Origin: Alphaproteobacteria bacterium
GTDB taxonomy: Bacteria > Pseudomonadota > Alphaproteobacteria > Micropepsales > Micropepsaceae
Assembly (NCBI GenBank): GCA_947475445.1
Contig: CANJLC010000003.1
Span: forward strand, 124,001-188,000
Reading direction: 5' to 3'
DNA length: 64,000 nucleotides
Shown: positions 14,235 to 17,647 of the stretch, piece after piece
Numbering within the stretch: the first letter of the stretch is position 1
Layout: every line of letters begins with the position of its first letter
Position numbers and translations under genes: made by a program
The notes under the pieces: generated by a model
Databases searched by the model: none
Seen by the model: the letters and a program-made list of their open reading frames with translations, nothing else
What the model was told of the DNA's origin: nothing

Positions 14235-15506
14235 ATGTCATCCTCCGGTCTCCCCGCACGCAAGGCAGCCCTCGCGCTTTTATCCGGCGTGCTGCGCAAG
14301 GCCAAGCCGCTGGACGCCTTGCTGGATGAATTGAAGGGCCTGGAACCGCGCGATGCCGGTTTTGCCCGCGCCCTGGCCAGCAGCACGCTGCGCCATTTCG
14401 GCGAGCTGGACGCCACCCTGCGCCATTTCGTGCCCAAGGCGCTGGCGCCGCACAAGGCGGGCGCGGCCACGGAGATATTGCTGCTGGGCGCGGCCGAACT
14501 CCTGATCCTGAAAGTCGCGGCCCATGCCGCGGTGGATGCCGCCAACCGGCTGGCCTCCGCCGATCCCAAGGCGGTGCATTTCAAGCCGCTGATCAATGCC
14601 GTGCTGCGCAAGATTGCCACCGAAGGCGAAGCGGTGCGCGCGAAGCTGGACACGGTGCGCCTCAACACGCCGGACTGGCTGTGGATGCGCTGGACCTTGC
14701 AATATGGCCAGAAGACCGCGCGCGCCATCGCCAGCGCGCACCTGCTGGAGGCGCCCATCGACATCTGCGTCAAGGATACGGCTTTTCCCGAAAGCATCGC
14801 CCTGTTCGGAAATACACGGCGGATAACGCAGGAAGGCCGTGTTGAAGAGTTGCCGGGTTTTGCACAAGGCGGCTGGTGGGTGCAGGACGCCGCCGCGACT
14901 TTGCCGGTGCTGATGCTGGGCGATGTGCGCGGCAAGCGGGTGATGGATTTGTGCGCCGCGCCGGGCGGCAAGACCATGCAGCTTGCAGCGCTGGGCGCCG
15001 AGGTGACCGCGGTTGAACTGGATCCGGCCAGGGCGGGACGGATCCGCGAAAACCTCGCCCGTACAAATCTGACCGCCACCCTGGTCGAGGCCGATGCGCG
15101 CGATTTCAAGGCCAGCGCGCCTTTTGTGCTGATCGACGCGCCCTGCACCGCCACCGGCACCATCCGCCGCCATCCCGACCTGCCCTGGATCAAGCAGGCG
15201 GGCGATGTGACGGCGCGCGCCCCGCTGGCTTATGAAATACTGGAAAATGGCGCGGCCATGCTGGAGCCGGGCGGCGTGCTGGTCTTTGCCGTCTGCTCGC
15301 TGGAGCGCGAGGAGGGCGAAGAGCAGATCGAAGCGTTTTTGAGCGCCCACCCCGAATTTGCCCGCATGCCGCTGACGGCGGACGAACTGTTTGGACATGC
15401 GGAATGGATTTCGCCGGTGGGTGACCTGCGCACCCTGCCCTGTCACTTGTCCGAGCAGGGCGGAATGGATGGGTTCTACGCGTCCCGCCTTAAAAGAATG
15501 GCCTGA
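14235..15506 (+). CDS. rsmB: 16S rRNA m5C967 methyltransferase RsmB (Fmu/Sun)
   Basis: 423 residues: an N-terminal NusB-like RNA-binding domain (to about residue 130) and a Rossmann methyltransferase domain. Visible motifs are DLCAAPGGKTMQLAALGA (SAM), DAPCTATGTIRRHPD (first catalytic Cys) and FAVCSLEREEGEEQ (second catalytic Cys). The last codons (GFYASRLKRMA) are also the left arms of the nested hairpin element at 15474-15565, and the stop codon lies in the loop of the first hairpin. Confidence 0.94.
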   Translation: MSSSGLPARKAALALLSGVLRKAKPLDALLDELKGLEPRDAGFARALASSTLRHFGELDATLRHFVPKALAPHKAGAATEILLLGAAELLILKVAAHAAVDAANRLASADPKAVHFKPLINAVLRKIATEGEAVRAKLDTVRLNTPDWLWMRWTLQYGQKTARAIASAHLLEAPIDICVKDTAFPESIALFGNTRRITQEGRVEELPGFAQGGWWVQDAAATLPVLMLGDVRGKRVMDLCAAPGGKTMQLAALGAEVTAVELDPARAGRIRENLARTNLTATLVEADARDFKASAPFVLIDAPCTATGTIRRHPDLPWIKQAGDVTARAPLAYEILENGAAMLEPGGVLVFAVCSLEREEGEEQIEAFLSAHPEFARMPLTADELFGHAEWISPVGDLRTLPCHLSEQGGMDGFYASRLKRMA

Positions 15507-15565
15507 ACAAAGGCCGTTCTTTTAAGGCGGGCGAAATGGTCCAGTGGACCATTTCGAGCGTAGAA
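15474..15565. repeat. Nested inverted-repeat element (predicted three-way junction) at the end of rsmB
   Basis: Three stems nest exactly. The outer arms TTCTACGC (15474-15481) and GCGTAGAA (15558-15565) enclose two adjacent hairpins. Hairpin 1 has 20-base arms, 15484-15503 and 15512-15531, with an 8-base loop holding the rsmB stop; its single mismatch (T15499/G15516) is a G-U wobble in RNA. Hairpin 2 has 11-base arms CGAAATGGTCC (15532-15542) and GGACCATTTCG (15546-15556). No U-tract follows, so it is not a standard terminator. It may be a dispersed palindromic repeat or a structured 3' end. Confidence 0.75.
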
Positions 15566-15610
15566 GGCCGCGAGCCTAAAGCGAGCGGCCGGGCGGCGCG
15601 GCTGCGGCGT

Positions 15611-17647
15611 TTATAGACGACCCAGTGCGTAAGCAATCGCCAGATAGATTTTACCGGTATCCGCAGACAAAAGCGTAGATGTCAGCAAGCCATCGCCTTC
15701 GCGCGCCTTGGCCAGCAGGATTTCAAATTCGCTTAAGTAAGAATCCGCCGCGTCTTGAAAGCGCGCATCTTCACGGTACAGCGCGGTGATGCGGTTGATC
15801 GCCTCGTCGTCAATGGCCTTGGCCAGCTTGCGGGCAAAGACGGCGCGGTCGCCGGAGAGATAGCGCTTCCAGTTTTCATCGCCGGGTGTTGCGTCCACCG
15901 CAATCGCGTCAAGGTCCACCGCCATGTCGGCCAGTGCCGCTTCAAGTGCGCCGATGGCCGCGGCATTGCCGGGCTGAAGCTGGGGCTGGCTGGTTTCCAC
16001 CGCCGCCAGCAGGGTTTTCATTTCCCAGCTTTTATTGCCCAGCGGCTTGTCGCCCGTCTCGCGCAGGTCGCGCCTGGGGCGCTGGGTGAGTTTGCGCGCC
16101 AGGCCCTTGAGGCCTTCGCTTTCCGGTTCGGGCGCCGGCGCAGCCGGCGATTGCGGCGTGCGGCTCTGGGCGCTCCTGGCATGCATGGTGGAAAGGGTGC
16201 GGGCGGACAGATCGAGGATCTGGTCGGTCTCGTTCTGCACCATCTGGCGGATGCGCTGCGCTTCGCCCTGCGCCAGGGTGGGCAGGCGCGTTAAATGACG
16301 TTCCACTTCCTCGATGGCCTTGGACAGGCCGGAGCGAATCTGGCTGGCTTCGGCCGACAATTCGCCGGCGGCGCGCAGCAGGCGTTCGCATTCCGCCATC
16401 GCCTCGCCCACCAAAGCGCGGGCATCCTGCTTGGCCTGGGCGGCGCTTTCGCCGATCAATGTCTGCGCGCCCGTGCCCGCATCATGCAGGGTGGCGACCA
16501 GCGCCGTCAGGACCGCATTGGCGGCTTCGGAGGAATCCTTCAGTCTTTCGGCTTCGCGCGAGAAGGCGGCGGTGAGCTGGCTGGCGCGGCTGGCGGCATT
16601 GGCCATGATCAGTTCGAGATGGCGCTCGGCGTCGCCGGTGAACATTTCGAAGCGCTTGGCTTCGCCGCCCAGCGAACCGATGGCCTGCTCCATGCCGGTG
16701 CGCTGCTGCGCCTGGGCGCTTTCAAAGGTGGCGCTGTCTTCCTTCAGCCGGGCCAGCATTTCATTCATCTGGATGCGATGCTTTTCCTGCCGCGCCAGGA
16801 CAAATTCGGCGCGCGCCAGGGCGGCGTCCGAAACCTGTTCGATTTTCTTGGCCTGGTTGTCCAGTTCAACCGCCGCTTCATGGGGCGCATCCGCCGCCGC
16901 CGTGGCCGCGGCGCGAAAGCCCGCCGCCTGCACATCCAGCGCCTGGGTCGCCATTTTCAATCCGCCTTCGGCGCTCTCGATGCTGGCGCGCAATTGCGCG
17001 GTGCGTCCCGCCACGGTTTCCGAGGCGCGGTTGGCAGAGTCCGTCAGTTGGTCACCCAGCGTCTCAAGGCGCTGGCTTTCCTGCGACAGGCGCGCGGCAA
17101 TCGCTTCGGCGCGGACCGCAGCGCGCGCGCCCGCTTCGTCCAAAGCGGCGACCTGGCTTTCCAAGGATGTTTCCAGGGCCCGCAAGCGCGAGAAGGCCCC
17201 ATCAAGACCCACATTCAAGGCGTCGAGTTCGCGCCGCACGGCGCGGCCCAGCCTGGCGGCGCTGCGCGCGACACTTTCATCAGCGGTGAAAAGCTGTTCG
17301 GCGGCGGCCTGCAATGCCATGGCCGTGTGGCCCATCTGGCTGGCGCGGCCAAAGGCGGCGGCGATGGCGACAAAGAGAAAGGGCGGCAGGACCATGGCGC
17401 CGGCGAACAGCGCGACCTGCTGCAAGTCCAGCGCGGCAAGACCCCCAGGTCCGAAATAGCCCCACAGATAAGCGCCCCAGACGCCGATCCAGAAGGCCGA
17501 CAGCACCCCGGCGAAGGCCAGGGCGGTGGCAGGGAACCGGGAGGGCGCAGGCGGCGCCAGGCGGGGCGCGGGACGTGCGTCCCCCTCGTCGGCAATATTG
17601 GCCGGCGCTGGCATAAGCTGTTGATTTTTCTCAAAATTCCTGATCAT
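15611..17647 (-). CDS. TipN-like polarity protein: two membrane helices plus long coiled coil
   Basis: 678 residues. Two membrane helices lie at about 41-64 and 78-99. A long, Ala/Glu/Arg/Gln-rich coiled coil spans about 110-470, followed by a Pro-rich linker near 490-510 and a conserved-looking C-terminal domain with DENWKRYLSGDRAVFARKL and the ending KIYLAIAYALGRL. This layout matches TipN, the Caulobacter new-pole marker, though that protein is longer; no enzymatic motif is present. The start is the ATG at 17647 with AAAGG upstream; an internal ATG at 17614 has no such site. It is divergent from an Hpt-domain gene across a CtrA-like site. The TipN assignment is inference from architecture. 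Confidence 0.6.
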   Translation of the reverse strand: MIRNFEKNQQLMPAPANIADEGDARPAPRLAPPAPSRFPATALAFAGVLSAFWIGVWGAYLWGYFGPGGLAALDLQQVALFAGAMVLPPFLFVAIAAAFGRASQMGHTAMALQAAAEQLFTADESVARSAARLGRAVRRELDALNVGLDGAFSRLRALETSLESQVAALDEAGARAAVRAEAIAARLSQESQRLETLGDQLTDSANRASETVAGRTAQLRASIESAEGGLKMATQALDVQAAGFRAAATAAADAPHEAAVELDNQAKKIEQVSDAALARAEFVLARQEKHRIQMNEMLARLKEDSATFESAQAQQRTGMEQAIGSLGGEAKRFEMFTGDAERHLELIMANAASRASQLTAAFSREAERLKDSSEAANAVLTALVATLHDAGTGAQTLIGESAAQAKQDARALVGEAMAECERLLRAAGELSAEASQIRSGLSKAIEEVERHLTRLPTLAQGEAQRIRQMVQNETDQILDLSARTLSTMHARSAQSRTPQSPAAPAPEPESEGLKGLARKLTQRPRRDLRETGDKPLGNKSWEMKTLLAAVETSQPQLQPGNAAAIGALEAALADMAVDLDAIAVDATPGDENWKRYLSGDRAVFARKLAKAIDDEAINRITALYREDARFQDAADSYLSEFEILLAKAREGDGLLTSTLLSADTGKIYLAIAYALGRL

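Follow-up and report, generated by a model that had tools for sequence, protein, structure and literature searches.

REPs carry a hairpin that is preceded by a tetranucleotide of the GTAG or GGAG type. Miniature elements derived from IS200/IS605 insert beside a fixed short motif. In Bradyrhizobium, the repeats Br-REP1 and Br-REP2 are located in 3'-UTRs, Br-REP1 consists of three adjacent stem-loops, and copy number varies strongly (excerpted text of PMC5082802). REPs near stop codons stabilize mRNA or stall ribosomes (works cited in the same excerpts of PMC5082802). For Escherichia coli REPs no more than 15 nt from a stop codon, ribosome stalling and recruitment of trans-translation have been reported (Liang et al. 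2015, as cited in those excerpts of PMC5082802). The element analyzed here also lies at a stop codon, at the 3' end of a gene in a 64-kb window (the whole stretch of DNA under analysis). It belongs to a dispersed repeat family of Alphaproteobacteria.

The gene (14235-15506, plus strand) is an open reading frame encoding a 16S rRNA m5C methyltransferase-like protein, for which rsmB is the candidate name given in the preliminary description. Its last codons form the 5' arms of the element. An outer stem of 8 bases enclosing two abutting hairpins with few unpaired bases had been proposed for 15474-15565, and folding of 15464-15575 bears this out (minimum free energy -69.2 kcal/mol, z -10.5; 0 of 200 shuffles equal it). 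In the outer stem, P1 (8 bp), rsmB codons at 15474-15481 pair with GCGTAGAA at 15558-15565, a 3' arm whose canonical form is GCGACGAA. P2 (15484-15531) has 21 bp (15484-15504/15511-15531), including one U·G pair, instead of the 20 originally counted, and a loop at 15505-15510. P3 (15532-15556; CGAAATGGTCC-AGT-GGACCATTTCG) has the 11 bp described (15532-15542/15546-15556) and is the most conserved part of the family. Apart from the loops, only GU at 15482-15483 and A at 15557 are unpaired. P2 is the sole hairpin in the window with 20-nt arms, at most one mismatch, and a 3-12 nt loop; the scan returned two overlapping registers, both of the same hairpin. The rsmB stop codon (TGA, 15504-15506) had been placed in the first loop, which is accurate for its G and A, but its T is the loop-closing base of P2.

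The right half of the element is the inverse complement of the rsmB end, much as the preliminary description had it, with the 25-nt P3 hairpin inserted into it; the P2 3' arm (15511-15531) is an inverted copy of that end. A fourth hairpin had been overlooked. P4 (15566-15590; GGCCGC-GA-GC-CTAAA-GC-GA-GCGGCC) has a tandem G·A motif at 15572-15573/15583-15584, abuts the P1 3' arm without a gap, and co-folds with the rest of the element; its addition brings the fold to -82.9 kcal/mol (z -11.5). Pairing was also said to be better as RNA than as DNA. There is indeed one U·G pair, but the minus strand is nearly as stable (-76.2 kcal/mol), so for the rsmB copy this argument depends on a single base pair. 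Strand asymmetry is present when all members of the family are considered.

Copies of the element are numerous. When its DNA was used as a query against its own genome (G000; 2.17 Mb, 29 contigs, 98% complete), partial copies sharing P3, the P1 3' arm, and P4 were returned, and a common plan was evident on reading. A covariance model (R1) was built from 42 copies. It has 35 matches in G000 at E ≤ 0.01 and 49 in the close relative G009 at E ≤ 0.001. In the window, its only plus-strand match is the rsmB copy (15500-15589, G000:C3:139500-139589; 56.5 bits, E 2e-9), along with a partial minus-strand echo of P3 at 0.65. The P3 core pattern GGTCC-RGT-GGACC is present in 34 of 61 genomes of the genus (0-63 per genome), and the reversed control pattern occurs 0-3 times per genome in the same set. 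Among the matches listed for the pattern GGTCCRGTGGACCN{8,14}CGAACGC in named genomes, 112 of 119 stretches are alphaproteobacterial by title, and carriers include Paracoccus, Mesorhizobium, Parvibaculum, Celeribacter, Jannaschia, Hyphomonadaceae, and a Rhizomicrobium. The other seven listed are three actinobacterial stretches, which look like chance matches (P3 extends by 1 bp at most), and four titled Gammaproteobacteria or Thiotrichales. When 100 of the 119 listed named loci were searched, R1 matched 114 times at E ≤ 0.01; this count is not independent, because 97 of the 100 were chosen as pattern-bearing. Across the class, at least 10 of 289 sampled genomes have R1 matches; this is a lower bound given the strict filters and a model of the type containing P2. 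The rsmB copy had no match in plasmids, and the pattern also occurs in 37 stretches labeled viral. Most copies are single. Inverted pairs were seen (L038, L135), and the element is in tandem, with two or three copies, at L134:6205-6518, L131:5239-5387, and L147:2971-3369.

Canonical copies are about 75-90 nt long and have the order GTGA, P1 5' arm (about 5 nt), optional P2, P3, P1 3' arm, GAAC, and P4. P2 is missing from some copies, and a few have a single hairpin formed by fusion of P1 and P3 (L163, L091). Conservation beyond what pairing requires is seen at the P3 apex, the 5' GTGA, and the 3' GAAC, which are nearly constant; other positions are variable. At L041, L226, L248, L270, and L358, a second repeat (CCTCCCTCGCTTCGCTCGAAG-like) adjoins or replaces parts of the element, which suggests mosaic units.

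Pairing in the family is conserved. In alignment A1 (42 of 211 copies, selected on P1, P4, and spacing), 20 of the 30 pairs of the named structure show two-sided changes, a result that overstates P1 and P4 because A1 was filtered on them. In alignment A2 (51 distinct matches), 30 of 30 pairs do, which none of 500 shuffles reach; A2 was fitted to the model, so both tests lean towards structure. P1 was also examined without selection for pairing, by comparing the five bases that follow the last GTGA with the five that end at the C of CGAACGC. It is fully Watson-Crick in 55 of 104 named copies (123 examined; shuffle mean 1.9, maximum 8 in 1000 shuffles) and in 27 of 58 congeneric copies (126 examined; shuffle mean 1.3, maximum 6), and the fully paired copies include 32 and 17 different stems, respectively. 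RNAalifold without a guide recovered P3 and P4 only from A1; P1 and P2 depend on the named structure, and P1 additionally on the unselected pairing test. A genome-wide covariance-model search and a look for compensatory changes in relatives had been suggested as checks on a dispersed palindromic element that landed at rsmB, a proposal to be given up if neither further copies nor covariation appeared. Both were found: the 35 matches in the element's own genome, two-sided changes in all stems, and element-free rsmB loci all bear the proposal out.

Occupancy of individual sites is changeable. Full-length rsmB homologues were found in 38 of 41 relatives searched, and their GFYAxRL-type protein end is conserved. 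Of the 30 loci returned, the element is at the rsmB end in its own genome only. In the 29 others it is absent, and in close relatives rsmB abuts the convergent gene directly (CTATAG). By this comparison the insert spans approximately 15498-15610, with edges judged from the sequences and not from exact mapping, and the convergent neighbor is an open reading frame ending just past it (15611-17647, minus strand). The uvrC site is occupied in one of 30 loci and the smpB site in four of 30. At the empty rsmB, uvrC, and smpB sites no clear target duplication was seen by eye, and the 3' end of the element is not fixed. Nucleotide BLAST found no flanks common to 30 loci of G000 and 30 of the 49 loci of G009, among the matches listed. 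Turnover is incomplete, as a few sites are common to congeners (e.g., L307 and L276). Several element-free relatives also terminate in GGGTGA or a variant; therefore, the TGA is often native.

The copy at rsmB departs from the usual form in that its 5' arms are rsmB codons. Its 5' half (GGGTTCTACGCGTCCCGC) resembles the start of other copies (TGAGGCGCGTCCCGC, e.g., L002), and the rsmB end is native, since the GFYAxRL-type end it encodes is conserved in relatives. Its 3' arm (AGGCCGTTCTTTTAAGGCGGG) is an inverted copy of this native end, which suggests a template switch at a chance quasi-palindrome.

The position of copies relative to genes was determined with a codon model trained from rsmB orthologues, which passed a sanity check on two window genes, including the convergent neighbor. 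Two other codon models were discarded: one called too few genes, and the other, whose training set of longest open stretches was probably antisense in many cases, gave results that disagreed between the two sets. The gene on the 5' side was callable in 180 of 211 copies and co-oriented with the element in 141; the remaining 39 are 3' of no co-oriented gene. Where both neighbors were called (142 copies), 59 are tandem sense, 24 tandem antisense, 51 convergent, and 8 divergent. For 97 copies that have GTGA and follow a co-oriented gene, the stop codon of that gene coincides exactly with the TGA of the element's GTGA in 47 and is within 6 nt of it in 56. An earlier count from open frames alone placed the stop at GTGA in 34 of 61. 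The smpB gene, which functions in trans-translation, carries the element at its stop codon in G000 (G000:C6:109398-109482), G015, G036, and G048 (L357-L360, L229). In G009, the smpB 3' end has a different structured insert with a weak R1 match (30.8 bits), and element types differ among G000, G009, and G015 at the same GGGGTGAG.

In three species, a copy is flanked by an intact tRNA-Ala(CGC) gene on one side and by a repeat of that tRNA's 3' half on the other (L014 about 610-851, L057 about 1325-1560, L070 about 1-230). This arrangement looks like an old integration-site duplication.

The many copies, the few sites common to close relatives, the conserved pairing, and the bias to gene ends and stop codons are best explained by a REP-like mobile family that would act as a translation-coupled RNA structure at gene 3' ends, a reading to which we assign a probability of roughly 55%. 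The element would spread as DNA through some mobiliser, and folding of its single-stranded plus strand would be under selection. Because the plus strand is usually sense-transcribed at gene ends, a structured mRNA 3' end is the most likely cellular effect. By analogy with REPs, such a structure may block 3'-5' decay, and it could delay or arrest termination. With P1 starting at the stop codon, the fold should form only when no ribosome is at the gene end. At rsmB, the element would have landed at the gene end; template switching at the quasi-palindrome would then probably have converted its 3' arms into the inverse complement of the last codons. Since rsmB codons now form the 5' arms, the last ribosome would have to open the structure to reach the stop codon. 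Stabilization of a 3' end and sensing by a protein, both raised in the preliminary description, are compatible with the sense position at gene ends and with the conserved P3 apex, GTGA, and GAAC.

Tandem G·A pairs and strand asymmetry characterize the family. Short P3 stems flanked by NGA...GAN have a matching outer pair (C-G or T-A) in 37 of 39 copies, with two exceptions; the flanks differ in six more copies that share this P3 extension. The P4 module NGAGC...GCGAN' is present in 72 of 211 copies (flanks C-G in 57, T-A in 12, and T·G in 3) and in 1 of 4220 shuffles. In P1 the module occurs as GGAGC/GCGAC in 26 copies and in the compensated forms GGAAC/GTGAC and GGAGG/CCGAC in two copies each. 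The 5' TGA and 3' GAA make up a further tandem G·A of this kind, with T-A as its outer pair in 116 of 127 copies and C-G in 4. Mismatches in the alignments, which were fitted to the model, are also unequal between strands (G·T 76 vs. A·C 32; G·A 160 vs. T·C 13). A duplex or cruciform would treat the strands alike, and the plus strand was therefore taken as the folding strand, whether as RNA or as single-stranded DNA. From the conservation of the G·A modules and of the P3 apex, a binding partner is predicted.

Single-stranded DNA transposition would account for the strand asymmetry and for the GTGA edge just as well as a role in RNA would. The family could be a pure mobile element of the IS200/IS605 style, with a fold that serves transposition only and GTGA targeted through the internal GAAC as a guide; the element would have no RNA function, and its gene-end bias would reflect what selection tolerates. 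Patchy copy number, empty sites, a fixed 5' GTGA that is often native to the gene, and the TGA-GAA pairing are all consistent with this explanation. We consider it possible but clearly less probable than a translation-coupled structure, as it does not predict the excess of tandem sense over tandem antisense copies (59 vs. 24) and the expected transposase is mostly missing. No RAYT (Y1_Tnp, PF01797) was found in G000, despite 98% completeness, and Y1_Tnp was found in only three of 21 congeners that have at least four copies of the pattern. In most carriers the resident mobiliser is not a Y1 transposase, and RAYT was rejected as a candidate.

DUF559 was the second of the two candidate mobiliser families examined. 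In Mesorhizobium sp. 1M-11, an inverted pair of elements surrounds a complete DUF559 gene (L135:1709-2628), and many copy-rich congeners encode a single divergent DUF559 protein with an altered version of the usual VEVDG motif (L447-L464, L466). R1 found no element at E ≤ 0.1 in 20 loci of such weak-scoring DUF559 matches and gave two matches in 30 ordinary DUF559 loci, both in one locus at 19.5 bits. Among the 119 named loci listed, DUF559 is present in only three, and G025 has many copies without a DUF559 match. DUF559 was rejected as an unsupported candidate.

A more doubtful proposal combines target choice in DNA with a function in RNA. A site-seeking DNA element would find GTGA, very often the stop codon of a gene, by pairing it with its internal GAAC (G-C, T-A, and tandem G·A across the three-way junction), and would then act as a translation-coupled RNA switch. 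The finishing ribosome would open P1 and the element would refold behind it; at rsmB, the gene's codons would have been recruited as the 5' half.

Mutation alone, through template switching and quasi-palindrome correction, might keep the palindromes perfect with no selection for structure. The overlong perfect arms at rsmB resemble products of such a process, as do the 10-17 bp extensions of P3 in five other copies. One of these (L277, minus strand) is extended by 17 further bp, giving a perfect arm of 22 nt similar to the long P2 of the rsmB copy, and the five copies suggest that arm extension recurs. However, correction would erase mismatches, and the tandem G·A is kept with covarying flanks (37 of 39); mismatches are also strand-asymmetric. 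As the sole cause, palindrome correction is largely refuted, and we regard this account as improbable. The least probable explanation is a bidirectional 3'-end barrier or terminator between the convergent rsmB and its neighbor, unrelated to mobility: the convergent setting, folding of both strands, and one weak minus-strand terminator-like site would suit it, but the terminator scan found no U-tract on the plus strand (in agreement with the preliminary description), the minus-strand site is at chance level (1 vs. 0.7 in shuffles), and the family is equally common between tandem genes (59 sense) and convergent genes (51).

A strongly covarying repeat family is present in many alphaproteobacterial genera without a match in Rfam, where neither the window nor nine loci with copies gave a hit above the gathering threshold or at E ≤ 0.5. 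It provides a test case for the causes of gene-end location, namely tolerance, targeting of stop codons, or regulation of mRNA ends and termination. Copies at the smpB stop codon in several species make a link to termination quality control directly testable.

No description of the family was found in the open-licence literature, although an older or subscription paper could exist, and the literal P3 core was not found in the open-licence papers searched. Intrinsic terminators have a G+C-rich hairpin followed by a U-tract on the sense strand, and the plus strand here has no such tract. Pairing of an internal guide with a target, as in IS200/IS605 elements, is imaginable for GTGA and GAAC; these elements differ in having a Y1 transposase, which was not found in G000. 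Br-REP1 and Br-REP2 are likewise alphaproteobacterial repeats in 3'-UTRs with variable copy number, and Br-REP1 has adjacent stem-loops (excerpted text of PMC5082802). Compared by eye, their consensus sequences as printed there (CCGGAATCTCGAGATTCCGG; CGAGATTCCGGG...) are unlike P3 or the GTGA and GAAC edges (PMC5082802). E. coli REPs share the placement of a structured repeat right after a stop codon; they lie near the stop, whereas here the stop is often inside the first four bases of the element. The action proposed here in RNA, as a 3'-end barrier or through ribosome stalling, is drawn by analogy with them. The family resembles REPs and REPINs as characterized in the excerpted text of PMC3116915, being short, dispersed, extragenic, and palindromic, with many copies, spread that is inferred, and a strand-specific single-stranded fold. 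A short palindromic unit dispersed at gene ends, with 35 matches in G000, corresponds to this pattern. The unit here is a three-way junction with a P4 containing tandem G·A, compared with the simple or doublet hairpin of REPs; the 5' edge of canonical copies is GTGA instead of the REP tetranucleotide, and no RAYT gene flanked by copies was found in G000. The family therefore departs from REPs in its tetranucleotide and in its lack of a RAYT partner, but it works like REPs.
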